DNA of 64,000 bases from Paenibacillus sp. Soil750. Its GTDB lineage: Bacteria; Bacillota; Bacilli; Paenibacillales; NBRC-103111. The position numbers were made by a program, and so were the translations under genes. Shown here in pieces: positions 45,461 through 64,000 of the stretch. The DNA lies in contig NZ_LMSD01000023.1 in assembly GCF_001428045.1 (NCBI RefSeq), positions 372,001 through 436,000 of the forward strand. Reading direction: 5' to 3'. The notes beneath the pieces are model-generated. The model was not told the origin of the DNA, did no database searches, and worked only from the letters and a program-made list of their open reading frames with translations. The number at the start of each line of letters is the position of its first letter. Position 1 is the stretch's first letter.

Positions 45461-46480
45461 GTGAGGATGAAACGGAAAAAAATCCTAGCTACCGCAATCT
45501 GTCATCTTTGTGTGGCATTGGTTTGGACAGCTTCTGCTTATGCGGAGAATACTTCCCAATTTTCTATGATCACATCAGATACCGAATCGACAGGTGAATT
45601 TACAATTAGTTTGAAAGGAAATAATATCCAGGATTTATATGCGTATGAGGCCAAATTCAGTTTCGATGCAAATAAGCTCGAAGTGGTTAAATCAGATACG
45701 AAAATAGATGGATTCTCCGTCTCGCCAGTTATTCGAAATAATGAAGTTACCATTGCACATACCAAAGTTGGCAAGGTTGATGGGGAGAAAGGGAATCTGG
45801 ATATCGGGACAATCACCTTCCGGGCCAAGAAAGCGGGGGTATCGAACATCAAATGGACCACTCTGAAAATCGTAGATCACAATTTGAAAAGTCAATCGTT
45901 TACTCGGGATGATGCTGCGGATTTCAGTAAAATATTCAGTGATCTTGTAGGACACTGGGCCAAGACAGACGTGATGCAGATGGTGAATAAAGGTATCGTA
46001 GAGGGAATGGATGATGATCATTTTGCGCCGGATAAGAAAGTTACTAGGGCACAATTCGCGACCCTGCTAGCTAAAGCATTAAATTTGAAAGATAATGTTG
46101 GCGGACAGTTGCCATTCAACGATGTAGCAGCAGGCAGTTGGTATCAAGGGGAAGTGAAGAAGGCGTACTCGGCTGGACTCATTAATGGGGTTTCTGCAAC
46201 AGAATTTGCTCCTGAGAGAAACATAACACGTGAAGAAATGGCAGCGATGTTGATAAGAGCTAAGGGTTATGCGGATGGAATTAAAGTGGAGGATTTGAAA
46301 ATGGACGAAACGATCCATTTTGAAGATGAAGATACAGTAAGTGACTGGGCAGGAGCCTTCGTAAAGCTTGCAGTTGGAGTTAAACTCATGGAGGGGAGAA
46401 CCGCTACAGACTTTGCGCCATTGGCATCTGCAAGCCGAGCCGAAGCAGTTGTTGTTCTAAAACGACTTACATACAATTAA
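45461..46480 (+). CDS. SLH-anchored cohesin-domain protein (scaffoldin-like)
   Basis: 339 aa. Signal peptide 1-~28 (…TASAYA). Residues ~30-150 form a cohesin-type beta-sandwich (GEFTISLKGNNIQDLYAYEA, LDIGTITFRAKKAG). Three S-layer-homology repeats follow: DLVGHWAKTDVMQMVNKGIV (~162), FNDVAAGSWYQGEVKKAYSA (~221) and DTVSDWAGAFVKLAVGVKLM (~290). SLH domains bind pyruvylated secondary wall polymer, so the cohesin is displayed on the cell surface, where it could capture a dockerin protein such as the GH95 enzyme at 53479. GTG 45461 lies behind AGGAG; ATG 45467 is an alternative. An exact cre site and paired repeats precede it. Confidence 0.85.
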   Translation: MRMKRKKILATAICHLCVALVWTASAYAENTSQFSMITSDTESTGEFTISLKGNNIQDLYAYEAKFSFDANKLEVVKSDTKIDGFSVSPVIRNNEVTIAHTKVGKVDGEKGNLDIGTITFRAKKAGVSNIKWTTLKIVDHNLKSQSFTRDDAADFSKIFSDLVGHWAKTDVMQMVNKGIVEGMDDDHFAPDKKVTRAQFATLLAKALNLKDNVGGQLPFNDVAAGSWYQGEVKKAYSAGLINGVSATEFAPERNITREEMAAMLIRAKGYADGIKVEDLKMDETIHFEDEDTVSDWAGAFVKLAVGVKLMEGRTATDFAPLASASRAEAVVVLKRLTYN

Positions 46481-46546
46481 AGGACATCACCCTGTTTAGA
46501 CCGAATCTATGTCAACGAAGTCATATTTCGTATTTGAAATTACGGG

Positions 46547-48349
46547 GTGAAGGTATTGAAGCTATTTGCTAAACCATGGTCATTTTCAGTGACTCTCCAT
46601 ATCTTGTTAGTCGTCATGGTTGTCTTTCCGATTGTGACGATCAGTACTATGATTCTTCAAGTATACAAACGCGATTTGCTACAACAAACAACGGAGCGAA
46701 CTCTGCAAACACTCCATGCGGTCACCTATTCAGCCCAGCAGGAGATCAGTAAAATCGAATACGCTGCAGCAGCCGTCGGTGTCGATCGCGATGTGCTATC
46801 AACGGTAACATCCTTGAATCAAGCGGATGAAAGCAACAGATTTAAGTATATCAACGACCTAACTCTTGCGCTGAGCAGATACACGTACTCAATGTCCAGC
46901 CAGCTTCTGGCGATCCATTTTTTTTATAAAGATGGCGGCGTGTATTCGTTTAAGCAGAACTTGATCAAAGATGAGCAGGAGCTGCGTTCAGCGTCATGGT
47001 ATCAGAACATGCTTCAGCACAAAGATAGTGTACAGTTTCTTAGCCTTCAAGAAACGCTTTTATACGGTGTGAGGGAGCCGTTAGCCGTGACAGCTGCGAT
47101 TGCACCCAGTGACTACCATACGCTAAGTAATGTCGAAATGATTTATTTTTCATTGAATGAAGAAGCGTTTGATAAAATCTTGCGACAACAGCCCAACGAT
47201 GATTCCTCCTATGTCATTGTCAGCAAGGATGGTCAAGTTGTCACAGCCAGCTACAATTGGGATCAATCGAGCTTAACACCGGCCAAACTTGAGCAGATCA
47301 GAGGTACGCGCGAGGGCCATTTTATCGATCAGGTGAGTGGTCGTCAGATGATGGTTACCTATGCAAGTGTTGGAGATACAGGCTGGAAAGCTATACAAGA
47401 GATACCTTACAGTAAGGTAACGGCCAATTATGAACGTATTTTTAAGTTCGTCCTATTCGCAACCATCGCGGTTATCGTTGTATTTTTGCTGATCTCCTTT
47501 TATTTAGTTCACAGTTTAACTAGACCTATTCACGTATTAGTCCGGAAAATGTCCCTTGTGATGGAAGGGGAGCTGAACGCAAAGATTGGGACTTCTAAAA
47601 TTGCGGAAATGGCAGCGCTGGGTAGAACGTTCAATCATATGCTTGATCAAATTAAGCTGCTTCTACGGCAGCGAGAGGAACAAGAGCAAGCGAAGCGGAA
47701 AGCAGAGTTTGCTGCCTTGCAGTCGCAAATTAATCCGCACTTTCTTATAAATACATTAAATGCCATCAAGTTAATGGCACTGATCAGTAGGACGGACAAC
47801 ATCCGTAACATGACCAATGCTCTGATGCGTCTTGTATCCTCCTCATTTAACCGAGGTGGCGTACTTATCCGTTTCTCCGATGAAATCGCTAATTTAAAGC
47901 ATTACTTATACATCATGGAAATTCGTTACGGAAACAAATTTGAAGTTGAATGGCATATTGATCCACAGGCAGAATCGAAGTATTTGCTCAAGCTGTTGCT
48001 TCAACCGATTTTGGAAAATAGCATCGTACACGGTATGGCTGGCAAAGAAACAAGTGGGAAAATCGTCATTCAAGCACGCATTTATGAAGGAAGTCTACAT
48101 ATTGTAATCTCTGATAATGGCGAGGGGATGACAGAAGAGCAACTCGAGGAGTTCCGTACTAGGCGCAGTCCGCATACGTTTACAGGCATGGGCGTTGCGA
48201 ATGTCCATCACCGGATTCAGCTGCACCATGGCGAGGATTACGGTATTATTTTGACTGTGAATGAGCCCAAAGGAACGAAGGTGTCGATGAAAATTCCGAT
48301 TATTCATCGTGATCAGGAAGAAGAGCGACCACTTCGGTTGGAAGCTTAA
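46547..48349 (+). CDS. Sensor histidine kinase (YesM-like, locus 3)
   Basis: ~600 aa. Membrane segment ~13-35, an extracellular dCache-like region of ~250 aa, a second membrane segment (~302-325), HAMP, His_kinase motif QSQINPHFLINTLNAIKLM (~395, phosphoaccepting His) and HATPase with QPILENSIVHGMAG and GMGVANVHHRI. The partner response regulator is at 51680, separated by the transporter genes. The frame opens with GTG 46547; TTG 46556, seven bases after GGGGTG, is an equally good start. It probably senses a glycan product for locus 3. Confidence 0.92.
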   Translation: MKVLKLFAKPWSFSVTLHILLVVMVVFPIVTISTMILQVYKRDLLQQTTERTLQTLHAVTYSAQQEISKIEYAAAAVGVDRDVLSTVTSLNQADESNRFKYINDLTLALSRYTYSMSSQLLAIHFFYKDGGVYSFKQNLIKDEQELRSASWYQNMLQHKDSVQFLSLQETLLYGVREPLAVTAAIAPSDYHTLSNVEMIYFSLNEEAFDKILRQQPNDDSSYVIVSKDGQVVTASYNWDQSSLTPAKLEQIRGTREGHFIDQVSGRQMMVTYASVGDTGWKAIQEIPYSKVTANYERIFKFVLFATIAVIVVFLLISFYLVHSLTRPIHVLVRKMSLVMEGELNAKIGTSKIAEMAALGRTFNHMLDQIKLLLRQREEQEQAKRKAEFAALQSQINPHFLINTLNAIKLMALISRTDNIRNMTNALMRLVSSSFNRGGVLIRFSDEIANLKHYLYIMEIRYGNKFEVEWHIDPQAESKYLLKLLLQPILENSIVHGMAGKETSGKIVIQARIYEGSLHIVISDNGEGMTEEQLEEFRTRRSPHTFTGMGVANVHHRIQLHHGEDYGIILTVNEPKGTKVSMKIPIIHRDQEEERPLRLEA

Positions 48350-48359
48350 AGCAGTTCAT

Positions 48360-48389
48360 AAAAGATCAACTTCATAGCCGAAAAGATCA
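48360..48389 (+). promoter_or_regulatory. Direct-repeat pair, candidate AraC response-regulator site
   Basis: AAAAGATCA occurs at 48360-48368 and again at 48381-48389, spacing 21 bp, directly upstream of a cre-like site. It matches the arrangement before the SLH-cohesin gene. Confidence 0.55.
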
Positions 48390-48391
48390 TT

Positions 48392-48405
48392 TGGATGCGT
48401 TTTCA
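48392..48405 (-). promoter_or_regulatory. cre-like catabolite-response element
   Basis: Read on the minus strand, TGAAAACGCATCCA fits 13 of 14 cre positions. It lies between the repeat pair and the locus 3 binding-protein gene. Confidence 0.55.
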
Positions 48406-48476
48406 CCCCGTGTATGATAAAGACAGGTTAAACAATCAACCGAATTAAAGAAACATTCATTGGAGGGGTTTCAAGA

Positions 48477-49793
48477 ATGGGAAAAAGTAAACTCGTAAGC
48501 ACAGTGCTAGTGGGGGGACTTGTTATGCTGAGTGCATTGACAGGATGCTCCAAGGATACGGCAGCACCTGCAGCAGCTTCCGTCAAACCAGCCGAAAGCA
48601 AAGCAGCAGCAGCGACGCCAAAACCAGCGGATCCCGTTAAGTTAAAACTTGCGATGTGGGATGCCAAAGGGGATCTTAAATTCTGGACAGACAAAGTGAA
48701 GGAATACACGAAGCTTAAGCCGAACGTGACCGTAGATATTGAGATGGTGCCGGATAATGGCGGTCAATACTTAAAGGTACGATTAGCTGCCAATGATTTG
48801 CCTGATCTGTTCTACCTCAAGCCTGCACATATGCAAATTTACAAACAATCTCTCCTTCCACTCGATGACTTGGCAGGAGCCAAGAATAATAAGTTTCCAG
48901 CCAAAATAGATGGGAAAATACTAGGCGCACCGCTCGTTTCTTTCTCGGAATTTGTCTACTTCCACCCAAGTATCTTCAAAGAGTTGAACTTGGACGTGCC
49001 GAAAACGATGCCTGAGTTCTTGTCCACGATGGAGAAAATTAAAACGAATGGTAAATATACACCAATCGCAATCGGCGGTAAGGAAGACTGGACGTTCTAT
49101 CCATTCATGGAGTTCGGCCCTCACATTCTGTCTGGGGATGAGAATTACTTAGCGAATTTGGCCAAGACGCCAGAGCCTTTCGGAGAGGGAAGTACATTTG
49201 ATAAAGCTGGGAAAATCATCAAAGAAATGTCAACGAAGAAGTTGGCAGGACCGGATGCCCTATCCATATCCTTTGATCAATCCACACAGTTATTTGAATC
49301 TAAAAAAGCGGCAATGATCGCAGCGGGTCAATGGTACTACGGGGACTACGCGACGAAAGTAAAAACGGATGAAGATCTTGGCGTATTCCCTCTTCCTTTC
49401 CGCAGCACAGAAAGCGAGCCGTTAACATCCATGACTGTATCCGATATGAATATCGGGATTAACAAAAACAGTAAAAATGTAGAAGAGGCGAAAGCATTCT
49501 TCGACTGGATGTTCAGTAAAGATGTGTACCAATCCTTCATTAATATGGCGCAACAGTTCTCAACAATTAATGGTGTGAGTACAGACCTTCCTTTCTTTAA
49601 CAAATGGACAGAAAAATATCCGTTTAAACCATTTATCTACTCAGCAACGGATGAAGGCTTTGCTAAAGTGAGTGGTGCGGCACAATTTGATTTCAAAAAA
49701 GCTGCACAGGAAATATACTCTGGTAAACCAATCGACACCTTGGAGAAAGAACTGAACAATAAGTGGAAGAAAGCGGTTGAATCGAACAAATAG
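48477..49793 (+). CDS. ABC sugar-binding lipoprotein (locus 3)
   Basis: 438 aa. Leader with lipobox ALTGC (~Cys 23) and an Ala/Pro/Lys-rich linker. The mature part is a CUT1 family-1 sugar-binding fold (VKLKLAMWDAKGDLKFWTDK; a KPNVTVDIEMVP strand; PIAIGGKEDWTFYPFMEF) of normal ~420-aa size, shorter than the LplA-type proteins of loci 1 and 2. GGAGGGG precedes ATG 48477. Paired with the two downstream permeases, it should import oligosaccharides released by the GH95 and GH101 enzymes. Confidence 0.92.
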   Translation: MGKSKLVSTVLVGGLVMLSALTGCSKDTAAPAAASVKPAESKAAAATPKPADPVKLKLAMWDAKGDLKFWTDKVKEYTKLKPNVTVDIEMVPDNGGQYLKVRLAANDLPDLFYLKPAHMQIYKQSLLPLDDLAGAKNNKFPAKIDGKILGAPLVSFSEFVYFHPSIFKELNLDVPKTMPEFLSTMEKIKTNGKYTPIAIGGKEDWTFYPFMEFGPHILSGDENYLANLAKTPEPFGEGSTFDKAGKIIKEMSTKKLAGPDALSISFDQSTQLFESKKAAMIAAGQWYYGDYATKVKTDEDLGVFPLPFRSTESEPLTSMTVSDMNIGINKNSKNVEEAKAFFDWMFSKDVYQSFINMAQQFSTINGVSTDLPFFNKWTEKYPFKPFIYSATDEGFAKVSGAAQFDFKKAAQEIYSGKPIDTLEKELNNKWKKAVESNK

Positions 49794-49803
49794 GTAATTA
49801 AAT

Positions 49804-49840
49804 AGAGGGTGCTATCTGAGCGATTAGAATAGTGCCCTCT
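49804..49840 (+). promoter_or_regulatory. Intercistronic hairpin/attenuator between binding protein and permease
   Basis: AGAGGGTGCTAT pairs with ATAGTGCCCTCT (two G-U pairs). The following CTTGT gives only a weak U-tract, so partial termination or 3'-end stabilisation favouring the lipoprotein is likely. Confidence 0.55.
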
Positions 49841-49861
49841 CTTGTATACAGGAGTGATTAC

Positions 49862-50743
49862 ATGAATTATCGCATGCAGCAGAAAGTCATCATCGTTTCA
49901 TTTCTATTCGTACCCGTTGCGCTCTTACTTTTGTTTTTGATCTATCCGACTTTGCAGTTGTTTCGCTACAGCTTTACGAGCTGGGATGGGTATAGCCCAA
50001 GTTTTAAATACATTGGCTTGAACAATTATAAGCAAATGCTGTTTGATTTCCCAGAAGCTTGGCATGCCATTCGAAACAATGTCATCTATTTTGTTTTACA
50101 TGCGATTGCCATACCACTTGAAATCGTCATGGCTGTACTCTTAACAAGAGCACTGCGAGGGAGCGCGTTTTTCCGCTTCTCGGTGTTGATGCCTTACATT
50201 ATTAATGGTATCGCGGTGGCTTATATGTTCAGCTACATTTATAACCCGATCAATGGTCCATTGAATGAGCTATTGAAAGCAATAGGACTTGAATCATGGA
50301 TTCAAAGCTGGCTAAGCGATGCGAAGATTGTGAATTATTCCTTGGTCGTTGTTTCTTTATGGCGTTACAGCGGCGTGCATATCGTGTTGTTTCTAGCTGG
50401 ACTGCAATCCATTCCGAAAGACCTGTATGAAGCGGCAGAAATTGATGGAGCGAACTTTTGGCAGCAACAAAGGTATGTAACGCTTCCAGGTATTCGACGT
50501 GTAATCGAAATTATTTTGTTCATGAATGTATCTGGAGCCCTTCTGCAGTATGACATTCCGCTTGTTATGACGAATGGCGGTCCAGGCAGTGCAAGCAGTA
50601 CATTTGGACTCTTTTCACTCCAAACGGCATTTACTTACAACAATTACGGTCTGGCCTCAGCGATGGCAGTTATTCTCTTACTTATGATTATTATTTTCTC
50701 ATCGTTGCAAGCATGGATCGTGAAAGACAGGAGTGAGGCTTAG
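49862..50743 (+). CDS. ABC sugar transporter permease, MalF/UgpA-like (locus 3)
   Basis: ~293 aa with six membrane helices. EAA loop EAAEIDGANFWQQQRYVTLP (~190-210) and the CUT1 pattern MTNGGPGSASSTFGLFSLQTAF. ATG 49862 follows AGGAG; an in-frame ATG at 49832 lies in the preceding hairpin and is rejected. Its stop is two bases before the next permease start. Confidence 0.92.
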   Translation: MNYRMQQKVIIVSFLFVPVALLLLFLIYPTLQLFRYSFTSWDGYSPSFKYIGLNNYKQMLFDFPEAWHAIRNNVIYFVLHAIAIPLEIVMAVLLTRALRGSAFFRFSVLMPYIINGIAVAYMFSYIYNPINGPLNELLKAIGLESWIQSWLSDAKIVNYSLVVVSLWRYSGVHIVLFLAGLQSIPKDLYEAAEIDGANFWQQQRYVTLPGIRRVIEIILFMNVSGALLQYDIPLVMTNGGPGSASSTFGLFSLQTAFTYNNYGLASAMAVILLLMIIIFSSLQAWIVKDRSEA

Positions 50744-50744
50744 C

Positions 50745-51641
50745 ATGGAACGTGCACTATCACTTGAACAAATGAGAAAGCAGCCGCTCCCGAGCCGTAC
50801 GCGATCGATGAGCAAACAGCGTGCAGCTGCTAATATTGTGTACTATGTGCTTTTTACGCTCATGGCTATCCTGATTTTCGTCCCTATTTTGCTTGTTGTA
50901 TTTGGTTCATTTAAAACGAATTTGGAACTTGCCGAAACGTCGCCGTTTTCGCTTCCGAAGAGCTTTCTTCATATCGATAATTACGTGAGTGCTTTGAAAG
51001 AAGGCAATATGATACGCGGGCTTGGTAACTCGATCCTGCTTGTCGTGTTGAGTATGCTCGGCAATATGCTGCTCGGGACGATGACCGCGTTTGTGCTCAA
51101 TCGTTTTCAGTTCCGAATGAAAAAGTGGATTCTCCTTCTTTTTATGATGGCGATGATCATTCCGGCTTACACGACAGAAATTGCTCGCTTTCAACTCCTG
51201 CATACACTCGGCGTTTATAATACGCTCGGGGCACCGCTACTTATTTATATTGGAACGGATATTATGCAGATTTACATTTACATGCAATTTCTCGAAAAGA
51301 TTTCGATACAGCTTGATGAGAGTGCTATGCTGGATGGCGCTTCTTATGTTCGTATCTTCCGTTCGATCATTTTCCCGCTGCTGTTACCTGCAACGGCAAC
51401 ACTGGCGATCTTAAAAAGTGTCACGATCATGAATGATATCTTTGTTCAGCAGTTATATATGCCGGACAAGAAATTGGCCACACTGGCTACTTCCTTAACT
51501 TCATTCGTGAGTACGCGCAGTTCAGACTTGTCTATGCTCTGTGCAGGTATTATTATCGTTTTATTGCCAAGTGCCATCTTCTATATCGTATTTCAAAGGT
51601 ATATTTTTAAAGGACTTATGGATGGAGCGGTGAAAGGATAA
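50745..51641 (+). CDS. ABC sugar transporter permease, MalG/UgpE-like (locus 3)
   Basis: ~298 aa with six membrane helices and EAA-like loop ESAMLDGASYVRIFRSIIFP, in which the first Ala of EAA is Ser. ATG 50745 follows the previous stop by one base with an AGGAG upstream; the in-frame GTG 50733 overlaps that site. It forms the channel with the MalF-like partner. As in loci 1 and 2, no ATPase gene is present. Confidence 0.92.
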   Translation: MERALSLEQMRKQPLPSRTRSMSKQRAAANIVYYVLFTLMAILIFVPILLVVFGSFKTNLELAETSPFSLPKSFLHIDNYVSALKEGNMIRGLGNSILLVVLSMLGNMLLGTMTAFVLNRFQFRMKKWILLLFMMAMIIPAYTTEIARFQLLHTLGVYNTLGAPLLIYIGTDIMQIYIYMQFLEKISIQLDESAMLDGASYVRIFRSIIFPLLLPATATLAILKSVTIMNDIFVQQLYMPDKKLATLATSLTSFVSTRSSDLSMLCAGIIIVLLPSAIFYIVFQRYIFKGLMDGAVKG

Positions 51642-51679
51642 ATAGAAGCAATCAACTTCACAGATGGGAGATGGACAGG

Positions 51680-53350
51680 TTGTTTAAAATGATGATTGTC
51701 GACGATGAACCGCTCGTTCGTCTAGCGCTTCAACATATGATCGACTGGGATAGTATGGGCATCCAGGTGGTTATTGAAGCTGGCGATGGCATGGAAGCCC
51801 TTGCTATTCTGGAGCAGCAAGGCGATATCGATCTGATGCTGCTAGATATTGAGATGCCCAGACTGGGCGGCATTGAGCTGCTGCGAGCGCATACGGCAAT
51901 TGTACAGAAGCGAAGACCTGTCGCCATCATGCTGAGTGCCTATAGCGAGTATAGTTATGTCAGAGAAGCCTTTGTGCTTGGCGCAATTGATTTCATAGTG
52001 AAGTCAGATATGGATGAGGAACACTTAGTTCCAGTTGTTTTGAAGGCACTCAATGAACTTCGAACGCAGGAGACGTTAACGTCTGTTGTCGAACGGACGG
52101 ATGAAGAGATCGATCGGAAAAGTGAAACCATTCGACAGCTCATATCCATCAATCCACAGCAGGATGAATCAGCCTATGCTGCTGCAGGGGCTGGTATCAC
52201 GGAGTGGCTTGAAGAATCGAATCAGTTGGTTGCCGTGATTACCATCTCGCAAGGCTCATCTGAGGGCGCAAGTACGGGGAGAAGCTTAAAAGATAGTCAG
52301 ACGCAGCGCTTTATCATGCAGTCCGTGCAAACCGTTCTGGACGCCACGTCAATAAAGCATCTCTTATATGGGAAGAGCCAGTCCGAATATGTTCTATTCT
52401 GTTCGTTCGCAGCGTTACGAAGTGAAAGTATGATTCGAGAAAAAGTGCAGGCTGCCTTCTCTATGATTCAAACGCGACTTAATCAATATGTCAATGTGTC
52501 CGTCTCGATTGGGATTAGCGATCTAGCAAGCGGTATGAAGGTATGGTACCGGTTGTATCAGCAAGCAGCCCATTTGGCCTCCATGAGTTATTTTGCCGGA
52601 TTTAATAAGGTTTTCTATCCTGAAAGTTGTATGGAGCTGGGGAAGTACGGTGCTGATAGCGGAATTGAGCATGCCCGTAAGCTGCAGGTTACTTTGAAAT
52701 CAACGGGAGCAGGGATTGCACAGCTGCTAGAGCAAAGTAACGCCCAGTTATGGTCTAAGGAATTTGAGCAGATGGAGCTGCTGCTTGGGCAAACATGGGG
52801 CTGGAGACCGCAAGATGTCCACACCGCGTTTGAGGATTTGCTTTGGGAGCTTGGCGGGCTGCTGTATCGCAAAGGAATTCGTTGGGATGACCTCGACGAA
52901 GAACTCCAGCATCCTTTTGAATATATGAAGAGTTTGGAGACATTGGATGAAACGAAAACCTGGCTGCATCGCATGTGTAGCCAGTTATTTCAACACATTC
53001 ACGGAATGACGACAAAGGCTAATTATAGCGGTGTCGTTACACTAGCGAAGCAATTCCTGGATCTCCATTATACGGAGGACGTCAACCTCACGTTGATCAG
53101 CGAAATGGTTGGCGTTAGCGAAGGGTATTTAAGTAAGCAGTTTACTAAAGAGGTCGGTTGTAACTTTATCCAATATTTAACGAATTTACGTATTGAGGAA
53201 TCGAAAAGGTTAATGAAAAAGAAGGGCAATAAAATTACGGATATTGCTGAAACGGTCGGGTATCTGAATGTCGAGCATTTCAGCAGAATGTTCAAGAAAA
53301 CAACGGGATACAGCCCGAAGCTGTATCGGGAAAGTTTGATGAACGGGTAG
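51680..53350 (+). CDS. AraC-type response regulator (YesN-like, locus 3)
   Basis: ~556 aa. Receiver domain 1-~125 with D8-D9, phosphoacceptor D56 (LLDIEMPRLGG) and a Lys in FIVKSDMDEEHL. A long middle region, then AraC double helix-turn-helix (~460-555: FLDLHYTEDVNLTLISEMVG to LNVEHFSRMFKKTTGYSPK). TTG 51680 is nine bases after GGGAG; ATG 51671 abuts the site. It is the probable partner of the kinase at 46547 and the candidate binder of the 21-bp-spaced repeats at 45323 and 48360. Confidence 0.9.
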   Translation: MFKMMIVDDEPLVRLALQHMIDWDSMGIQVVIEAGDGMEALAILEQQGDIDLMLLDIEMPRLGGIELLRAHTAIVQKRRPVAIMLSAYSEYSYVREAFVLGAIDFIVKSDMDEEHLVPVVLKALNELRTQETLTSVVERTDEEIDRKSETIRQLISINPQQDESAYAAAGAGITEWLEESNQLVAVITISQGSSEGASTGRSLKDSQTQRFIMQSVQTVLDATSIKHLLYGKSQSEYVLFCSFAALRSESMIREKVQAAFSMIQTRLNQYVNVSVSIGISDLASGMKVWYRLYQQAAHLASMSYFAGFNKVFYPESCMELGKYGADSGIEHARKLQVTLKSTGAGIAQLLEQSNAQLWSKEFEQMELLLGQTWGWRPQDVHTAFEDLLWELGGLLYRKGIRWDDLDEELQHPFEYMKSLETLDETKTWLHRMCSQLFQHIHGMTTKANYSGVVTLAKQFLDLHYTEDVNLTLISEMVGVSEGYLSKQFTKEVGCNFIQYLTNLRIEESKRLMKKKGNKITDIAETVGYLNVEHFSRMFKKTTGYSPKLYRESLMNG

Positions 53351-53366
53351 TGATATTGGATGAAAA

Positions 53367-53478: not shown

Positions 53479-56400
53479 GTGATTGTTTTGCGCAAGCTGC
53501 TGAAATTAACCTTTAAGAAGAAATCGATTGTAAGTCTCCTGGTAGCCGCCTGTATATCTACGGGATTTACTGTTGTTGTTCCTATTGAAAACGCACATGC
53601 GGCATCTACCATTACTTACACAGGAACTGCGGCGCCTCCAGCGCACAATCTTGCGCTATGGTATCGCCAACCGGCAACAGATTGGGAAACACAGGCGCTG
53701 CCGATTGGTAACGGTTTCATGGGTGGCATGGTGTTTGGCGGTGTCGATCAGGAGCATATCCAGTTCAATGAGAAGACACTCTGGACAGGAGGCCCGAGAT
53801 CTATAGCTGGAGGGGGAAGAGACGGTAACCGAGATGGGGCTGCGGACCACTTAGCGGATGTACGTCAGAAGCTGGCGAGTGGCGATGTAGCCGGTGCAAG
53901 CTCCATTGCCGAGCAATATTTGACAGGCACATTAAACGATTATCCGCAATTTGGAAATTATCAAAATTTCGGCGATATATACTTCGATTTCGCACTCCCA
54001 GCTGCGGTGACCGTCACTGACTATCGGCGCGAGCTTGATCTGGAGGATGGCATTGCGAGAGTGACCTACAAGCAGAATGGTGTCACGTATACACGCGAAT
54101 ATTTCATGAGCTACCCGGATAATGTGATGGCTATGCGACTTACGAGCAGTCAACCGAATCAAATGAATTTGGATATCAGGGTCACAAGCCCGCAGACAAC
54201 GCCTTCCATCGTGGCTAGTGGTAATATGCTGACCTTGAGGGGTAAGCTGGCTGACAATAACATGGCGTACGAGTCACAGTTCCGTGTCCAAACCGAGGAT
54301 GGAACGGTAACGGCTGGTAATGGAAAACTGACGGTAGCTGGAGCCAGCTCAGTTACGATTCTGATGTCGGCAGCTACGGATTATGCTAATCATTATCCGG
54401 ACTACGTGGGAACGGATCCACATGTAACCGTGAATGACAGACTGGCAGCAGCTTCTGCCAAGTCGTATGAGACGCTGCGTGCACGCCATCTAGCGGACTA
54501 TCAAGAACTCTTTCAGCGAGTATCGCTTAATTTGAATGATCAGATTGCCACGATACCGACAGACCAACTGCTGACTAGTTATAAAAGTACACGCAACAGT
54601 GCATTGGAATCTCTCTTTTTCCAATATGGTCGGTATATGCTCATTGCTTCTTCGCGAGAAGGTTCACTCCCCGCCAATTTACAAGGGGTTTGGAATAACT
54701 CAACGACACCGCCATGGGGAGCCGACTACCATACCAACATTAATCTAGAAATGAATTATTGGCCTTCTGAAGTGACGAATTTGAGTGAAACCGCCATTCC
54801 GTATGTTGATTTTATTGATTCATTGCGGGCGCCAGGACGAGTCACAGCCCAGAAACATCATGGTGTAACGGGTTCTGGTTGGACGATCCATACGTTTACT
54901 AGTATTTTTGGCTATACGGCACCGGGTTGGGACATTAGTAATTGGGGTTGGCAACCAGCCGCTGGCGCATTCCTTTCCCAGCAGCTTTGGGAGAAGTATT
55001 TATTTACAGGTGATACTGCCTATTTGCGAACGAAGCTGTATCCGATCATGAAAGAAGCCGCTGAATTTTGGACGGAAACACTTGTAACGGATACAGACGG
55101 GACTTTAGTCTCGACGCCGGGTGTCTCGCCTGAACATGGCTCCTTAAGTATCGGTGACTCTTATGACCAAGAGTTAGTTTGGCAATTGTTCACGAATTGC
55201 ATCGACGCGAGTACTGTACTTGGCATCGATGAAGCTTTCCGTAATGAGTTGATAGATAAACGCAGCAAGCTCTCTATGCCGAAAATTGGGAAGTTCGGGC
55301 AAGTGCAGGAGTGGAAACAGGATATAGATGATCCCAATGATCAACATCGCCACATTTCTCATTTAGTTGGTTTATATCCTGGCAACTTAATCAATAAAGT
55401 AACAACGCCCGACCTGTTCAATGCGGCGAGAGTAACCCTTACACAGCGTGGTGATGAAGCAGAGGGGTGGAGCAGAGCGAACAAACTGAATATGTGGGCT
55501 CGCATGCTCGATGGCGACCATGCCGAGAAGATTCTCCAAGGACAGCTTGACGTGAGTACTTATTCGAATTTATTCAATTCAGGTCCACCATTTCAGATTG
55601 ACGGCAACTTCGGCGGCACATCCGGGATTGCAGAGATGCTTTTGCAAAGTCATACAGGAAGTATCGACTTGTTACCAGCGCTTCCTTCGACATGGCCTAA
55701 AGGTGATGTAAAAGGTTTGAAGGCAAGAGGCGATTTTGAAGTGGATATGAGTTGGAATGGCACGATACTGACGAATGCGGAAATTACTTCTTTGCAAGGC
55801 AATGTGGCGAAAGTCAAGGAGAAGACGTTCACGCATGCTGGCCAATTCCAAGTGGTGAAGACGGCTGACGAATCTCCAGTGAGCTACACGCGAAGTGGTG
55901 ACACGATTACTTTTGCTACCGAGGCGGGCCAATCCTATACGATTACCTCCAGTGTGACACCACCACCACTTCCGCCGACCCAAGTGCAGTCACCTACACA
56001 TACAGCGACAACGGTGGATTTGCAGTGGACAGCTCCTACAAGCGGTGCAACGGTTGCAGGCTATGTGTTGGACGTTCACCAAGGATCAACGAAAATCCGA
56101 AGTATCGATGTGCCGGCTGCAAGCACAAGCCTCAAGGTAACAGGTCTAAACGAAAAGCAGTTGTACCGCTTCGTGGTCTGGTCCAAGGATGCCGAAGGCA
56201 CGCTCTCTACGACCAGCAATGAAACAACCGCATTTACGTTTGTAGGAAATGCGTATCAGCAAAATTTTAACAATGGTGTAGCCGGTGGCTGGAAAAAGAC
56301 TTCAACAACGGGAAGCGCAGCATTCAGTGTGGAGAATAATGCCTTGAAAGTCGTTGCCAATCCAGTAGCCATCATGGTTGACGATAGTTCACCTGCGTAC

Positions 56401-58233
56401 AAAGATGCTGACGTGGCGATGAAACTTAAAATTCAAACAGGAACGGGGAGAGTTGGGCTGCTCTTCCGCTATACAGACGTGAACAACTATGCCGGTGTCA
56501 TTTATGACTATGGGAAATGGCTATGGTACTACGTGAAGGACGGTACTGAACACTATGGTGATCTAACGTCCATGATGCTTACAAATGGTCAAACCTATGA
56601 TGTGAAAGCGAGTTTCGTTGACTCGAATATTCAGTTGTGGATTGATGGTCAGTTGGTCGGTTCCACGACAGTGGCAGATTTCCTGAATGCACCTGGAAAA
56701 ATAGGGCTGAGAACCTGGTTTGATAACAAAGTATTGGTGATCGACGATGTGAATTATATCAATACAAGACCCAATGCTGTTCCAGCCGTACAGAAAATCA
56801 AGGTTGACGACCGTGATCCTTCCGTTGTGTACACGGGGACATGGAGTACTTATAACGATGGCGGAGATTATAACGGTACGGAGAAGTATAGCGGTACGGC
56901 TGGTGCTTCTGCTGAGTTTACTTTTACGGGCACCTCGATTGACTTCATCAGTATGAAGCAAACGAATCTGGGTAAAATCGATGTGTATCTCGACGGCGTA
57001 TTGGCACAGGCAGATATGGATTGCTATGCTACATCGACGAACAAACAAGTCGTCCTGTTTAGTCGCAGCGGATTAGAGAGCGGAACGCATACGATCAAGG
57101 TTGTTGTGAAAGGAACGAAAAATGCCGCCTCCAGCAATACGTATGGAGAAATCGATGCTTTCGCGTATACACCAGCCATTGCAGCGCCGAATGTAACGGC
57201 GGACGACACGAACAATATAATCGTTGGCGCGAATTCGGACATGGAATACTCGGTGGATGGTGGGGTCACCTATACAACCTATCATGAAACGCCCATCCCT
57301 GTATTCAAAGGAGATCAAACTGTTCTCGTACGCCTAGCTGCAACGGATGTGAACGCAGCAAGTTTGACTACAACGGTGACGTTCACGGCAAATCCGTTCC
57401 AATCGATCGCTTTGGCGAATATTCCGGCAGCGATGAATGTCGGAGATACCGTTAGTGCAGTCGTTTATGCGACATACGGTGTGAACGATCTTTCACTTGT
57501 TACAGAGGGCGTAATATATGTAAGTAGTCATCCAGAGGTTCTTTCCATCGACAGCACGGGCACCCTCCACGCTTTAAGCCCAGGTCAAGCAACCATTACT
57601 GCGACATGCGGAGGCAAGCAGGCAGCACAAGATGTCACTGTAGCGGTTGTAGTCCCAATTGAACCGACAGCATCGCTGACTGGACCAGCATTCGTTACAA
57701 CGGGGACTAATTTTACCGTGCAGTATGCGTTGACGCCAATGCAGAGTGTGTATGCACAAGATATAACCATTACCTATAACCCAGATCAATTGGCCTTCTT
57801 TTCGGTGCAGTCTCTCTATCCAAATTTGATTATCGTTAATAAAACAGAGCAACTGGGCCGTATGCGACTTCTTCTAGCCAGTACGACCGCAGATGCCGCT
57901 AACGTGAATGGCGCTTTGCTAGCCTTACAGTGGCAGGCCAAAACCATCACGCAATCCGCTGCGCTCACATTAGCCGACGTAAAGATAGCGAATGGTAACG
58001 GGGTAGAAACACACGTCGTTGGAAGCCCGCTCAGCGTTCAAATCAGATCGATCTCAGGAGATTTAAATGTAGACGGCAAATTTACCATTGGCGACTTAGC
58101 GATTGTGGCATCGGCTTATGGCAAAACATCCGCTGATTTGGACTGGAATCAATATAAAAAGGCTGATATCGACAATGACAATGATGTAGACATTGATGAC
58201 CTTGCATGGGTAGCATCCAAGATTTTGGAATAA
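53479..58233 (+). CDS. Secreted GH95 alpha-L-fucosidase with FN3, LamG-like, CBM-like, Ig-like, cohesin and dockerin domains
   Basis: 1584 aa. Signal peptide ends near residue 40 (ENAHA). GH95 catalytic region ~54-810: opening [19 protein letters not shown], Asn residues in [12 protein letters not shown] (~420), general-acid Glu in GVSPEHG (~551), Asp in [14 protein letters not shown] (~708). GH95 enzymes invert alpha-1,2-linked L-fucose (or L-galactose). Then FN3 (~833-920), a LamG/DUF1080-like module (~923-1094), a CBM-like beta-sandwich (~1100-1230), two Ig-like domains (~1236-1393, the second Big_2-like), a cohesin (~1395-1523: [16 protein letters not shown]) and a C-terminal dockerin with two calcium loops ([14 protein letters not shown] and [14 protein letters not shown]). 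Carrying both cohesin and dockerin is unusual. The start may be GTG 53479 or TTG 53488 behind AAAGGGTG. Confidence 0.9.
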
Positions 58234-58322: not shown

Positions 58323-61300
58323 ATGAGGGCAACTGGACGTAAATTAAGCGTTATTCTTTCAACTACACTCATAGCTACAAGTGTATTACCATTACCAGGT
58401 GCGTTACAGATGTTTGGCAATGCTACAGCATTGGCAGCGAGTGGTCAGAGTGTGACCTACACGAACAATTTTGAAGATGGAACAGAAGGAAATCTCTCGG
58501 ATAAAGGGACAGTAACGTCCGACACAGCGGTAAGCGCAAGGGCTACATACTCGGAAATGAATGGACAATTTCTAGCTGCGAAAAATCCGAATGGCGGCAA
58601 TGAAATCTTTTATTTTAACGATATGCCTGATGTGGCTAATGGGACGTTTGAAGCGAAGCTGAACATTGATGGAGGGGCTTCCGAGCAGTTCGGATTCATC
58701 GCTAGATATAAAGATCCAACGCATTATGCCATGGTTTCCCGTGATGGGAACGGTTGGTTATGGGATGGGTATAATGGGGGCAGTGAAGTGTGGGGTTCCT
58801 ATCTGAACAAGACCATTAAACTGGATCCAGGCAAAACGTATGCCTTCAAAATGACATTCAGCGGGGATATGTACGAGGTCTATATCGATGGTGCGCTTGT
58901 GTACACGTCAACCTCAGGGGGCAAGCTGCCCACAGCAGGTGGTAAAGTTGGCTTTCGCTCTTACTTCGCTGCAAAGACATTGAATATCGATGATGTGAAA
59001 GTGACGGATAGCGATAAGGGTAATGCGGTCGTTTATACAAGGAATTTTACAGATGACGCCACACCAGGCTTACAAATGGCAGCTGCAAGTGCAGTAGTTC
59101 CTACGTATTCTTTTAAAACGCCATTACAAGGCTTCACTGGAAAAGTTGCACAGATAACGACAACGAATGGCACAAGTCAGGTTGTTGATAGTAAATCGCC
59201 ATTAGCGATTAACGGAACCTACAGTACCAAGCTGCAACTGGGCGGAACTTATAGCTCTGCAGGACTGTTGTTCCGATATGTCGATGAGAGCAACTGGAGT
59301 TCAGTTAGAACGGATAGCGCTGGGAATTGGACGTTGACGGGTAAAAAAGACGGTGCAGATGTCTCGTATAATTTAACGAGTACGCCTCAACCTCTAAGTC
59401 CTGGTGCGGTACACAATGTGGGTGTGGGTTATGAAGGGGATACCTATACACTCACCGTAGATGGCACGGAGATTTATACGGGTACACAAGTGGGGATGGC
59501 TGTTGTGAATGGCAGTCAGGGTTACACCGCAAGCTCCACGGGAACATTAACGACCTATATGGATGATATGCAAGTTACGTATAAAGAAGGTGACGTCTAC
59601 ACGCCGCCGAAACCAACGACGTACATTAGGAATTATAACGATGGCTTAACGGGTACTTGGAATAAAATAGATGGAACGACCTATTCGCCGACGCCAGCTA
59701 TCGTGAATAATCAACTGAACATTACCAATCTGTTTGGGGAAATCTATGATAACGATTCGCTGCCGATTCAAGATGGTACGTACACCATCAAGTTCAGAAC
59801 GAATATCGATACGGGGCGTATCGGATTTATTTTCAGATATATCTCACCATCACAGCCTTACGCGATGATTTATTATAATACAAACGGAAATTGGGGCTGG
59901 CAAACGGATGCATCGCATTACGGCGATTTGACAACCAGCGGGCCTAATCTAGCAGCCAATACGGACTATACGCTGAAAATTAAATATATTGGCAAAAACA
60001 TTAAAGTCTGGTTGAATGATGCTTTGGTTGTCAGTGGAAGTGCAGATTTCCCGGTTGCCGAAGGAAAAGTAGGCTTAAGAAGCTGGTTTACATCGAAAAA
60101 TATAACAGTAAGTCAAATCTCACAAGAAGCTTATATCCCACCAACACCTCCGCAACCAACGGAGTTGCACCCGATTACGATTTCATCAGATCAATTAAGT
60201 GTGACGATGGATAACCGCTTCCCGACCGTACGCAATTATACGTGGCTGAGCAACGAGGCTTCGAATGCAACCCTGCAAGGTCAAAGTGATTTTCTATACA
60301 ATGTGAAAATAAATGGCAATGACGGCTTTGCAACGGTACGAAGTGCAACGAAAACGGCAGGGGATACGGTTGTTTATCAACTAGACGTTCCCGTCGTAGA
60401 TGATAACTCAGAAGCTGCAGTCGGCACTGTGAATATGACCGTCACGTATAAAGTCACAGGCAATATCGTTAATATGGGAACGCATATCAATAGTGAGCCT
60501 TCCGGTTATAAAGTACGAACCGTGGAATTCCCTAATCATAAGTTAGTTACGGTGTCGAGCAGCAATCCCGAAGCACAAGGGGCGTCCTCTTGGGTAACTG
60601 GGGAATGGAATCAGATGAATGATGAGTTCTATACAAATGACATCACTTATGGAACGAAATTAAAAGATCAAACCGTAGACAGTAAGCTAAGAACGTATGG
60701 TTTTGTTAGTGATGGTAAATTGGCGGCAGCGATTATGAATGACGTTGTAGATACGCCAGCCAAAATTGTCATGAACTTTGCAGCGGAACAGGATGGTACC
60801 AATAAGCAGCTTTCGATGTGGAACGGGGTTTGGAAGGCAAGAGGAGATATTATCGACGATAGCAAATTCCCGCCAAAATTTGATTTTTCATCGAAAATCA
60901 TCATTTCTCCGGATAGGAACGATGATCACACCGCGGATTGGAAAGATGCAGCGATTGATTTCCGCAGTATATGGTCGGAAAATCTTCACCCAGGCGCTAG
61001 CGAAATCAATAATTATGTCTCCTATATCGCCATGAACTTCAACAGCTTAGCGCAAAACCCATTCTTACGTACATTGGATAACGCCAAGAAGCTTTACAAT
61101 TTGTACGATGGCTTCGGACAGCTCATTTTGGAAAAAGGATATCAAGCAGAAGGGCATGACGACAGTCATCCAGACCTCGCTGGTCACTTCGGCATTCGTG
61201 AAGGTGGGCTGAAAGATTTTAACACGCTTGTCGATGAAGGGTTAAAATACAATGTGAAAGTCGGCGTTCATACCAACATTGACGGTCAAGATCCTGATGC

Positions 61301-64000
61301 TTATTATGCAAAACCAGAAAATTGGGGCAGCACAAGCTCGAACTATGACTGGGTTGACCCTACATATCCGTCTGATCGTGCTAAAGATTTAGCAGGCGGA
61401 GATTTGGAGAAAAGGTATACTCAGCTAAAACAAGAAGTGCCCAATCTTGCGATGATTTACGATGATGTATATAGCGGAGCAGGTTGGCACGCCAATCAAT
61501 TTGCGAATGTGATTCAGAACAAATTAGGCTTCTGGTTTGCCACAGAGTTCTCTGGGCCATTAGAGGAAAATGTGATTTGGACCCACTGGGGAACCGATCC
61601 TTATTATCCAAGTAAAACGCCGGGCAGTCAGATTATCCGTTTTATTAAAAACCAATATCAAGACACATTCCAGGCACCAAGCCCGTATACCAGTGTTTTA
61701 TTGAGAGGTATGCTGCAGGCTGGAGTTGGTACTTGGCAAGGCAGAACGGATATTCAGAACGGGATTGATTTATTTTACAATAACAATTTGTTAACGAAAT
61801 ATATGCAGCATTTCCCTATTCTCAATATGACGCATGATGCTTCTGGTATGGATAAAACGGTCGTTTTCGGGGGCGGAGTCGTCGCTTCCTTGGATGAATA
61901 CCATGCAGATAGCGCAGATTCCAACTATATCATTGGTACAGCTTCGCTCAAGAAAGAAGGCAAAACAATTGCCAAATATGATGTGCTGAACCATAAAGAC
62001 TGGGGAGATACCGGCGTTGGTCAATTAGATGTGAGTAATCAGAAGAGCCAATTGTTCCTACCGTGGGATCCACAAAATGAATCTAAAATCTACTACTGGA
62101 ATCCAAAAGGTGGTTCAACAACGTGGGAATTGCCTAACAGCTGGAGCGGTTTATCGTCAATTGAAATGTATAAGCTTACGGATACAGGACGTGTTTGGGA
62201 GCGTACGCTGCCAGTTACGGGCGGTTCCGTAACGATCAGTAATACGACAATCGGTGTTCCGTATGTGATCTACAAATCCAAAGCTGATGAGCAAGGTGCA
62301 GATACGCAGCAAGCGGGCGATTTCGGATTCGGCGGACCTGTGAAGGATCCAGGTTTTGATAGCGGAGCATTTGCATCCTGGGAGAAAACCTCTACTGCGA
62401 ATGCGACAGCTGCGAATGTAACCGTTGAGCATGATTCTCTGAAAAATAACTTCCTAAAAATAGCAGGGAAAGACGATGCTACGATTACACAGAACGTCTA
62501 TGGACTTGAAGCGGGGAAAACGTACACGGCTTCGGTTTGGGTAGACATTAATAATGCTTCTACATCAACTGGTAACGAAAATAAGTCGCGCAGTACTTCC
62601 GACAGAACCGTTACGATTGGTGTGAAAAACTACGGCGGACCGGAAGTAACGAATTTCATCACTTCATCAAAGATTAAGAATCTTGAAGAGCCTAGCAAAT
62701 TTAAAAATACGTACTATCAACGAATGAAGGTTGATTTTACGGCAGATGCCACGGGGAAAGCAACGATTTATTTGAAGGCTGATGCCACGAGCGTTGCCAA
62801 TTCCAACGTGTGGTGGGATGATGTGAAGCTGTGGGAGAATCCAGGCAAGACTGATTTTGGCAGTCATTACTTCTACGAAGACTTCGAAAATGTTTCGGAA
62901 GGCTATGGACCCTTTATGTTCCAAGCGGCATCAAGCGGAGGTCAAACGCATTTGGCTGAGAAGGTGAGCGATGCACAGAAAGCAGCTGATCCTTACATTT
63001 CGCAGCCGATGACCTATGTCATTGATGGCAATTACTCTTTGAAATCCAATGAACAGGATTTTATTTCAAATGCAAATACACCGTTAGTGGCAGAGCTGCT
63101 AGCAACCGTCCCATCAACGCTGAAACTATTGCCGAATACCCATTATAAAGTCAGCATGAATTATGAGGCGAATAAAGCCGGGCTGTATCAGCTCTCGGCT
63201 AAATCAAGATCGAATGGTCAGACTTATAGCGTGCCGTTGTCTTCTGCAACTGGTACAGGTAAGTCCCTAATTCCTGGTTTTACGCTGCCAATTATCAAAT
63301 CTACAGGTACTGCGAACGCGGTATTAGATTTTGAAACAGGTGCTAAGGACGATTATTACATTGCTATTGAGTCTGTTAAACAAACGGCACAGCCCCAATT
63401 ATCAGCGATTGATGTTGTCTTGATTGTGGATGATTTAGTTGTCGATGATTTAACAAATCCGCAAGCGCCCACAGCTGCACAAATTGCTGCTGGAATTACG
63501 AGTATCACAGCTCCTGCACAGGATGCTGGCAGCTTGACACTGCCTAATGTGCCAGCTGGTTACAGCGTTGCAATTAAAAGTACGGATCAACCTGCTGTCA
63601 TTCAACTGGATGGAACTATCGTACCATCTGGTGTTGTGCGCACAGTGAATCTCGTTTTGGAAGTGACGCGGACATCCGATGGTACGAAAGCGGTGACTGT
63701 GAGCTTGCCTGTTGTCGTACCAGCGAAGTCGGAACAACCTAATAAAGTTCTTCTCGATGGTGTGAACACGGTCATGACGGGAGGCACATTTGATTTGACC
63801 TACGGATTGGCCAATACAGCGGATAACATCCTAGCTCAGGATTTGACGTTCACCTATGATCCAGCAAAAGTAGAATTCCTTGGTGTGGAATCTGTCAGTG
63901 ATGGTTTGACTATTGTAGACAAGAAACTAACAGAAGGTCAGGTTCGAATTCTTGTTGTCAAAATTGGAGGCCATGCAGAAGCGGTTGCTAACAACGATCT
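58323..64000 (+). CDS. Secreted GH101-type endo-alpha-N-acetylgalactosaminidase with LamG-like and cohesin modules (3' end outside window)
   Basis: The frame from ATG 58323 (AGGAGG seven bases before) is open to the window end, 1892 codons. Signal peptide 1-~38. Three LamG/DUF1080-like modules (~42-229, 235-420, 431-599), each opening with a TYTNNFEDG/YTRNFTDD/YIRNYNDG-type strand. A galactose-mutarotase-like sandwich (~613-870). Then the GH101 barrel (~876-1150): AEGHDDSHPDLAGHFGIREG, probable nucleophile D1048 in IYDDVYSG, acid/base E1075 in FATEFSGP. GH101 enzymes release core-1 Gal-GalNAc from Ser/Thr of mucin-type glycoproteins. Galactose-binding-like modules (~1337-1710), an atrophied-Ig domain (~1713-1802), and a cohesin starting ~1806 (GGTFDLTYGLANTADNILAQ) follow. 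By analogy with GH95 a dockerin may follow beyond the window. Confidence 0.85.
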   Translation, partial: MRATGRKLSVILSTTLIATSVLPLPGALQMFGNATALAASGQSVTYTNNFEDGTEGNLSDKGTVTSDTAVSARATYSEMNGQFLAAKNPNGGNEIFYFNDMPDVANGTFEAKLNIDGGASEQFGFIARYKDPTHYAMVSRDGNGWLWDGYNGGSEVWGSYLNKTIKLDPGKTYAFKMTFSGDMYEVYIDGALVYTSTSGGKLPTAGGKVGFRSYFAAKTLNIDDVKVTDSDKGNAVVYTRNFTDDATPGLQMAAASAVVPTYSFKTPLQGFTGKVAQITTTNGTSQVVDSKSPLAINGTYSTKLQLGGTYSSAGLLFRYVDESNWSSVRTDSAGNWTLTGKKDGADVSYNLTSTPQPLSPGAVHNVGVGYEGDTYTLTVDGTEIYTGTQVGMAVVNGSQGYTASSTGTLTTYMDDMQVTYKEGDVYTPPKPTTYIRNYNDGLTGTWNKIDGTTYSPTPAIVNNQLNITNLFGEIYDNDSLPIQDGTYTIKFRTNIDTGRIGFIFRYISPSQPYAMIYYNTNGNWGWQTDASHYGDLTTSGPNLAANTDYTLKIKYIGKNIKVWLNDALVVSGSADFPVAEGKVGLRSWFTSKNITVSQISQEAYIPPTPPQPTELHPITISSDQLSVTMDNRFPTVRNYTWLSNEASNATLQGQSDFLYNVKINGNDGFATVRSATKTAGDTVVYQLDVPVVDDNSEAAVGTVNMTVTYKVTGNIVNMGTHINSEPSGYKVRTVEFPNHKLVTVSSSNPEAQGASSWVTGEWNQMNDEFYTNDITYGTKLKDQTVDSKLRTYGFVSDGKLAAAIMNDVVDTPAKIVMNFAAEQDGTNKQLSMWNGVWKARGDIIDDSKFPPKFDFSSKIIISPDRNDDHTADWKDAAIDFRSIWSENLHPGASEINNYVSYIAMNFNSLAQNPFLRTLDNAKKLYNLYDGFGQLILEKGYQAEGHDDSHPDLAGHFGIREGGLKDFNTLVDEGLKYNVKVGVHTNIDGQDPDAYYAKPENWGSTSSNYDWVDPTYPSDRAKDLAGGDLEKRYTQLKQEVPNLAMIYDDVYSGAGWHANQFANVIQNKLGFWFATEFSGPLEENVIWTHWGTDPYYPSKTPGSQIIRFIKNQYQDTFQAPSPYTSVLLRGMLQAGVGTWQGRTDIQNGIDLFYNNNLLTKYMQHFPILNMTHDASGMDKTVVFGGGVVASLDEYHADSADSNYIIGTASLKKEGKTIAKYDVLNHKDWGDTGVGQLDVSNQKSQLFLPWDPQNESKIYYWNPKGGSTTWELPNSWSGLSSIEMYKLTDTGRVWERTLPVTGGSVTISNTTIGVPYVIYKSKADEQGADTQQAGDFGFGGPVKDPGFDSGAFASWEKTSTANATAANVTVEHDSLKNNFLKIAGKDDATITQNVYGLEAGKTYTASVWVDINNASTSTGNENKSRSTSDRTVTIGVKNYGGPEVTNFITSSKIKNLEEPSKFKNTYYQRMKVDFTADATGKATIYLKADATSVANSNVWWDDVKLWENPGKTDFGSHYFYEDFENVSEGYGPFMFQAASSGGQTHLAEKVSDAQKAADPYISQPMTYVIDGNYSLKSNEQDFISNANTPLVAELLATVPSTLKLLPNTHYKVSMNYEANKAGLYQLSAKSRSNGQTYSVPLSSATGTGKSLIPGFTLPIIKSTGTANAVLDFETGAKDDYYIAIESVKQTAQPQLSAIDVVLIVDDLVVDDLTNPQAPTAAQIAAGITSITAPAQDAGSLTLPNVPAGYSVAIKSTDQPAVIQLDGTIVPSGVVRTVNLVLEVTRTSDGTKAVTVSLPVVVPAKSEQPNKVLLDGVNTVMTGGTFDLTYGLANTADNILAQDLTFTYDPAKVEFLGVESVSDGLTIVDKKLTEGQVRILVVKIGGHAEAVANND

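Follow-up and report, generated by a model that had tools for sequence, protein, structure and literature searches.

The genes that run from position 45461 to beyond position 64000 of the window, by which we mean the whole stretch of 64,000 nucleotides of Paenibacillus sp. Soil750 DNA that was analyzed (positions 372001-436000 of contig C23, in a genome of 8.3 Mb and 44 contigs), very probably form a wall-tethered cohesin-dockerin locus for O-glycans. The cluster is probably one for sensing, cutting and importing sugars from fucose-bearing O-linked glycans, and the cohesin-dockerin system to which it belongs is real and widespread. A preliminary description of the DNA had proposed such a tethered system, which the domains, folds, gene order and conservation support well. 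The complete explanation that we prefer, an inducible O-glycan locus whose enzymes would be held at the wall through cohesins and dockerins without a classical scaffoldin and would also be chained to each other, is one towards which the evidence leans slightly, and the head-to-tail chaining of the enzymes, taken by itself and judged from gene content, is a proposition on which we regard the balance as even.

The cluster consists of eight genes, all on the forward strand, in the order anchor, kinase, solute-binding protein, two permeases, regulator, GH95 and GH101. Its features are as follows, in window numbering.

45003..45122, + strand: dockerin remnant at the end of a small frame (44766-45131); 27.6 bits with the A1 profile, 36.7 bits with the dockerin profile
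45461..46480, + strand: SLH anchor with one cohesin (Pfam, AlphaFold2 model, fold comparison); N-terminus signal-peptide-like as judged by eye
45569-45880, + strand: cohesin of the anchor (Pfam, fold)
about 45932-46471, + strand: three SLH repeats of the anchor (Pfam, fold)
46547..48349, + strand: sensor histidine kinase (His_kinase, HATPase_c, HAMP; dCache below cut-off)
48477..49793, + strand: solute-binding protein of a sugar-type ABC importer (SBP_bac_1)
49832..50743, + strand: ABC importer permease
50733..51641, + strand: ABC importer permease
51671..53350, + strand: response regulator with an AraC-type DNA-binding domain
53479..58233, + strand: GH95 enzyme, catalytic domain at about 54463-55641; other domains fn3, CE2_N-like (below cut-off) and Big_2
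57697-58014, + strand: enzyme-type cohesin of the GH95 protein
58057-58227, + strand: dockerin of the GH95 protein
58323..64000, + strand: GH101 enzyme, its frame cut by the window edge; catalytic domain at about 60942-61757
63747-64076, + strand: cohesin of the GH101 protein (profile match)
between the GH101 cohesin and dockerin, + strand, outside the window: FIVAR-like stretch (alignment)
64380-64553, + strand: dockerin of the GH101 protein, just outside the window (profile match)

The anchor opens the cluster and adjoins the dockerin remnant, whose frame stops, as judged by eye, part-way into the second dockerin repeat. The two-component system and sugar importer that had been proposed were confirmed by domain matches, at 46547-53350.

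The claim that the SLH protein carries a cohesin holds at both levels at which it was evaluated. Its Pfam Cohesin match, at 25.3 bits, clears the cut-off of 24.1, and in an AlphaFold2 model (pLDDT 90.1, from a 23-row alignment) residues 29-160 match solved cohesins with Z scores of 12.6-14.3. The best of these matches is to 2vo8 (Z 14.3 over 127 residues, 2.6 A), and the domain is about equally close to several cohesin types across that range. As modelled, therefore, the cohesin fold of the anchor is a true one; the C-terminal half of the protein matches the SLH domain of B. anthracis Sap with a Z of 22.7.

The GH95 protein, which has a catalytic-domain match with an E-value of 1.8e-162, was said to end in a cohesin and then a dockerin, and this reading is supported by the genome-wide profile search, in which the two modules score 30.9 and 24.5 bits, both above cut-off, and by a model of the tail (pLDDT 93.0, pTM 0.74, for a 190-residue tail and a 111-row alignment). 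A Pfam scan of the whole protein gave the dockerin 17.2 bits, under the cut-off of 22.9, and did not list Cohesin. In the fold search, which took in the cohesin (residues 1-131) and barely covered the dockerin, the tail cohesin matched 2vo8, the C. perfringens GH33 cohesin, with a Z of 19.1 and 2jh2 with a Z of 18.4, and the profile of the enzyme cohesins matches 2jh2 at an E-value of 1.8e-13, so that by fold and by sequence this is a cohesin of the C. perfringens X82 type. A generic Ig-like fold, the alternative against which the cohesin calls were to be checked, is excluded for the GH95 tail and the anchor by these matches to solved cohesins.

Support for the GH95 dockerin comes from sequence comparison, which points to a putative calcium-binding module: the calcium-loop positions 1, 3, 5, 9 and 12 are kept, in both repeats, in most of the 111 sequences. 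The two halves of the tail profile match the two halves of one solved C. perfringens complex, 2ozn, the cohesin half finding the NagJ cohesin (E 2.6e-13) and the dockerin half finding the hyaluronidase dockerin as its top dockerin match (E 3.3e-7), followed by the Pseudobacteroides GH48 dockerin 2y3n (E 1.7e-6); this correspondence is counted in favour of chained docking. When the single GH95 sequence is the query, however, its nearest solved dockerin is 2y3n, ahead of the C. perfringens one, and this counts against our preferred explanation. The C. perfringens hyaluronidase presumably also has a FIVAR module beside its dockerin, as many of the tails described here do.

The GH101 protein does reach a cohesin at the window end, as had been noted from the cut frame (35.9 bits, from 63747), and the full frame, 2078 aa long, continues beyond position 64000 into the dockerin that was to be looked for there (43.7 bits). 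The preliminary description, which placed a cohesin and a dockerin together on the GH95 enzyme, was right about that protein and undercounted, since the GH101 enzyme bears both modules too.

The genome search for other dockerin proteins returned 17 matches to PF00404 (14 above cut-off) and, besides GH95 and GH101, ten further cohesin-dockerin proteins. Together they make 12 large proteins with a C-terminal cohesin-(FIVAR)-dockerin tail that aligns as one family, ten of them with a glycoside hydrolase match (GH43, GH30/GH43, GH27, GH2, GH127, GH43, GH10, GH10-like, GH95 and GH101) and two without a clear one; an S8 peptidase (L049) and a beta-helix protein (L051) were excluded from the 12 for weak cohesin or dockerin scores. 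The first of these, at L049:6476-10780, is a Subtilase (S8) frame in which the weak matches to both modules lie close to the C-terminus. PF00963 has 24 matches (21 above cut-off) in 24 separate frames, and hence no multi-cohesin scaffoldin was found among them, in a genome whose division into 44 contigs makes a missed gene possible. The dockerins mostly travel with a cohesin: 12 of the 17 matches in this genome share a protein with one, the others being dockerin-only or weak, and in three complete relatives the dockerin matches that share a frame with a cohesin number 43 of 50, 12 of 16 and 7 of 7. The genome also encodes eight distinct anchor-type cohesin-SLH proteins and two larger SLH proteins, in L052 (GH53) and L054, whose cohesin is of the enzyme type. 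The former (L052:7075-10677) combines a GH53 enzyme, an enzyme-type cohesin and three SLH repeats, and is followed after 23 bp by a dockerin-only protein (L052:10701-11696), the two genes forming a minimal pair. Elsewhere in the same genome, G000:C12:796516-797796 falls in a 2177-residue frame that resembles the FIVAR portion of the tail profile in about five places and lacks any match to a cohesin or a dockerin.

The enzyme and anchor cohesins are two subtypes. Labels were assigned with profiles from this genome and its relatives, first over 114 sources and then over 210, each set consisting of loci and the window; the enzyme type has VYAQD in strand 3, and the anchor type DLYAYE. In the 210 sources, enzyme-type cohesins occur with a dockerin in 306 proteins, with SLH in nine (two of which were entered twice) and alone in eight, while anchor-type cohesins occur with SLH in 53 and alone in five, and none of the 58 shares a protein with a dockerin. 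For these counts, and for those of gene neighbourhood below, only identical proteins were removed, so that a gene cut at a locus edge may count double. In a tree of the 114-source set, the 38 anchor cohesins fall in one clade that contains none of the 179 enzyme cohesins (support 0.85), a result which is partly circular because the labels were derived from profile scores; what stands independently is the agreement of the label with the partner domain.

The arrangement of the cluster is conserved among relatives. The closest named relative found, in a set from which very near genomes may be missing, is Paenibacillus qinlingensis, whose GH95 tail is 83% identical. P. qinlingensis and P. silvestris share the order of all eight genes, from the anchor to GH101, and have counterparts of the anchor at the same place that are 77% and 64% identical, respectively; the P. 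silvestris GH101 protein is only 35% identical. GH95 is followed by GH101 in all four of the best GH95-tail relatives (P. qinlingensis, P. aceris, P. silvestris and P. planticolens), an adjacency established through Pfam in two of them and through BLAST in all four; P. aceris and P. planticolens have the nearest relative of the anchor elsewhere. No dockerin remnant was scored in the sequence covered around the anchor in P. qinlingensis (L255, extending 1.6 kb past the anchor) or in P. silvestris (L257, extending 0.7 kb past it).

Anchors as a class stand beside dockerins. A dockerin frame lies within 1.5 kb of 50 of 53 anchors, on the same strand in 46 of the 50 and at a median gap of 87 bp, in loci which were mostly selected for holding a cohesin-dockerin cassette. 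A smaller count that is free of this selection comes from one complete genome, G016, in which eight of nine small dockerin-less cohesin frames (350-640 residues) bear SLH repeats and, by hand count, six of the eight resulting anchors have a dockerin match no more than 300 bp away (one of these dockerins being under the cut-off and one having an in-frame stop). In the locus studied here the anchor lies 7 kb from GH95 and is not its neighbour, which counts against our preferred explanation. As to spread within the family, the tail profile (E 1e-12) matches 75 of 104 genomes, belonging to 14 of the 22 genera; among 398 genomes drawn from the phylum, the genome studied here being counted, it matches seven. 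Some of all these matches span the cohesin only. Of 30 genomes of the genus, again with this genome included, 29 have Pfam cohesins.

The substrate of the locus is indicated by its two enzymes taken together. The GH95 domain scores closely against several kinds of solved GH95 enzyme, with 7kmq, which we take to be a xyloglucan fucosidase, first, and with FucOB, presumably of Akkermansia type, and fucosidases that we take to be of bifidobacterial type lower; because the scores are close, GH95 alone leaves the target undecided. GH101 is known for mucin-type O-glycans. The GH101 domain here matches 2zxq at an E-value of 1.2e-74, and the Asp of its IYDDV stretch and the Glu of its ATEF stretch align with what we take to be the catalytic residues of that structure. 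It is quite improbable that the GH95 enzyme targets fucosylated xyloglucan or another plant glycan and that the locus is one more plant-fibre locus; the first rank of 7kmq would fit that reading, as would the fact that eight of the other ten cohesin-dockerin proteins match GH43, GH30, GH27, GH2, GH127 or GH10, mostly families that are frequent in the degradation of plant polysaccharides, but GH101, a family which we associate with mucin-type O-glycans, is the next gene here and in all four relatives, and the retention of the GH95-GH101 pair speaks for O-glycans. The earlier suggestion that the target would be O-glycans rather than plant fibre can thus stand for this locus at most, since most of the other cohesin-dockerin enzymes of the genome look plant-directed. 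Paenibacillus is listed among the Firmicutes with mucin-degrading glycoside hydrolases, GH95 included (PMC9120202), and GH101 is not named for the genus in the portion of that listing used here. A search for a GH112 phosphorylase, which would serve the use of galacto-N-biose, gave no match in this genome, a point against our preferred explanation, although the same search gave none in the control genomes either.

The mechanism that we propose would begin with the kinase, which would sense glycan products and, through the AraC-type regulator, turn the locus on. The anchor would be attached to the wall through its SLH repeats and would receive, in its cohesin, the dockerin of either enzyme, GH95 or GH101; the enzyme's own cohesin would in turn accept the dockerin of the next enzyme, giving a head-to-tail row. 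GH95 would then strip terminal alpha-1,2-fucose, after which GH101 could release the core disaccharide, and the importer would take up the freed product. The gene content would be read most economically as chaining, given 12 proteins with both modules, no protein with several cohesins found in this genome, lone dockerins that are few in three complete relatives, and linkers between cohesin and dockerin that are short in most cassettes; and because most dockerins of the relatives share a frame with a cohesin, the sockets on the enzymes would be filled mostly by other cohesin-bearing proteins. The L052 gene pair, in which the SLH protein with its enzyme-type cohesin is followed by a dockerin-only protein, is also counted in favour of this explanation, which is burdened by the need for a single dockerin type to bind two cohesin subtypes.

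Partner specificity was evaluated by correlation analysis. For 30 of 33 adjacent dockerin-anchor pairs, those with all four domains, the mirror-tree correlation of the dockerin is 0.684 with the adjacent anchor cohesin and 0.679 with the SLH repeats, a presumed non-binding control, so that co-inheritance suffices to account for it; the partial correlations, as raw values, are small (0.28 with SLH removed and 0.17 with the enzyme cohesin removed). Residue coupling, computed over 296 of 299 cassettes, shows no enrichment between the expected cohesin face and the dockerin helices, the observed value being equalled or exceeded in 41 of 125 rotations and, when only variable columns are used, in 104 of 105. 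Strand 3 as a whole is weakly enriched (nine of 125 rotations match it), and four of the seven top inter-domain coupled pairs touch cohesin residues 30-34 in strand 3, three of these four involving low-entropy columns; in view of the rotations and the low-entropy columns, residue coupling was set aside as evidence for docking. Neither analysis gives clear support for chaining beyond co-inheritance, and both count against the preferred explanation. Symmetric binding by two faces of the dockerin was also considered and looks unlikely, because the repeats differ: position 11 of repeat 1 is Gly in 106 of 111 sequences, position 11 of repeat 2 is variable, and positions 18-22 differ.

The alternatives to chaining differ from it in what they assign to the enzyme cohesin. 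If each SLH anchor took one enzyme, and the enzyme cohesin were idle or had some other partner, no chain would form; the adjacency of anchors to dockerin proteins, in G016 as elsewhere, would be expected on this account, as would the separateness of the anchor-type cohesins and their absence from frames with a dockerin. We nevertheless think it unlikely, because the enzyme cohesins retain VYAQD in strand 3, most dockerins travel with such a cohesin, and the L052 pair joins a cohesin of this very type, on an SLH protein, to a dockerin-only neighbour. The two modules of one protein might instead bind each other, or two proteins might close back to back into a dimer, so that the tail is capped or its display regulated. 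Both modules do lie on one protein in 299 cassettes, and the model of the GH95 tail is confident for each of the two domains, yet its pTM of 0.74 is no argument for fixed packing, and the linker between cohesin and dockerin is shorter than 15 residues in 194 of the 299 cassettes, which, from the geometry we take these modules to have, should hinder self-docking. A closed dimer is conceivable, and so is self-binding in those tails with 70 to 160 residues between the modules; for closure in either form we see a low probability.

We judge it very unlikely, finally, that the enzymes form two-enzyme pairs in solution, as in C. perfringens, and that the SLH anchors serve other partners. The nearest solved relatives of the enzyme cohesin are indeed C. 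perfringens modules, and pairs of glycoside hydrolases are described for that organism in the relevant part of PMC12997984; against this, many loci have a cohesin-SLH anchor next to these enzymes, and a protein with two modules would be able to take a third partner unless sterically blocked. Chaining, if it does occur, could be part of something larger: family-wide scaffoldin-free surface arrays in which head-to-tail polymers would grow from a locus-encoded SLH anchor, one dockerin type would read two cohesin subtypes, cohesin-dockerin-cohesin-dockerin proteins would act as linkers or branch points, and each sugar locus would have its own self-extending chain. This extension we regard as doubtful and put forward tentatively. 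Small proteins with the composition cohesin-dockerin-cohesin-dockerin (or cohesin-dockerin-dockerin) were observed at L066:7884-9464, L071:7890-9062 and L236:9911-11515; a Pfam scan of the L066 protein found no catalytic domain, and it is possible that such proteins are linkers or branch points.

The architecture itself is already in print for P. guangzhouensis, and cohesin-dockerin mucin systems are likewise in print for C. perfringens and Limousia; the new instance is the O-glycan locus. As described in the relevant section of PMC11557425 (2024), P. guangzhouensis has 35 cohesin proteins, 28 of them with a single dockerin-cohesin pair and many with an N-terminal glycoside hydrolase domain (GH2, GH20, GH29, GH31, GH43), together with five SLH-anchoring scaffoldins as possible docks, and nearly all of its dockerins are on cohesin-bearing proteins. 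The set is there termed architecturally distinct from conventional cellulosomes, and the proposal made for it is missed dockerins or the scavenging of foreign ones, not chains. The genome studied here resembles it in having cohesin-plus-dockerin glycoside hydrolases, separate SLH-cohesin anchors and mostly cohesin-linked dockerins, and differs in that the largest P. guangzhouensis scaffoldin has two cohesins while none with two was found here. GH95, GH101, anchors specific to single loci and cohesin subtypes go unmentioned in that section.

In C. perfringens a GH31 protein bears both modules, with another such protein in A. muciniphila, and X82 cohesin-dockerin enzymes have been described (Adams et al. 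2008, via PMC12997984). Among solved structures, those from this organism come nearest to the enzyme cohesin in fold and sequence, and C. perfringens enzymes likewise bear the cohesin themselves; in contrast to the present system, its description, in the part of the source that concerns it, includes no SLH anchors, has mostly one module per enzyme and has pairwise complexes. The mucinolysome of Limousia, reported in 2026 (PMC12997984), is, like the system proposed here, a cohesin-dockerin assembly for mucin glycans with dockerin-bearing GH95 and GH101, but according to the same portion of that report it uses non-catalytic scaffoldins, some of them multi-cohesin, whereas here the cohesins are on enzymes and small anchors. 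Classical cellulosomes, as summarized in PMC11557425, share the SLH-bound cohesin, the dockerin-bearing enzymes and the two-module proteins, and differ in having a multi-cohesin primary scaffoldin, of which none was found here. Locus-specific anchors, Paenibacillus cohesin subtypes and the family-wide spread are not described in the portions of PMC11557425, PMC12997984, PMC6823336 and PMC9120202, and of the open-licence literature, that were drawn upon, and may exist elsewhere in print.

If the dockerins do bind both the anchor and the enzyme cohesins, then the Paenibacillaceae would build scaffoldin-free multi-enzyme surface complexes for many glycans, with an anchor gene standing beside many of the loci concerned. 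The set is large, with at least 93 cohesin matches in each of two of the 30 genus genomes (G001 and G014), yet in the literature drawn upon here its account amounts to one paragraph, in the relevant section of PMC11557425. The chain hypothesis is clear and testable, and a plug and a socket on every unit would offer a simple model in which to ask how the length and order of a chain are set. Outside the family, in two genomes of another family of the phylum (G114 and G394), loci L157, L158, L163, L164 and L166 encode an SLH protein, some 1350 residues long, that has two enzyme-type cohesins, and in the same loci a dockerin lies in a 324-residue frame about 2 kb from this two-cohesin protein.
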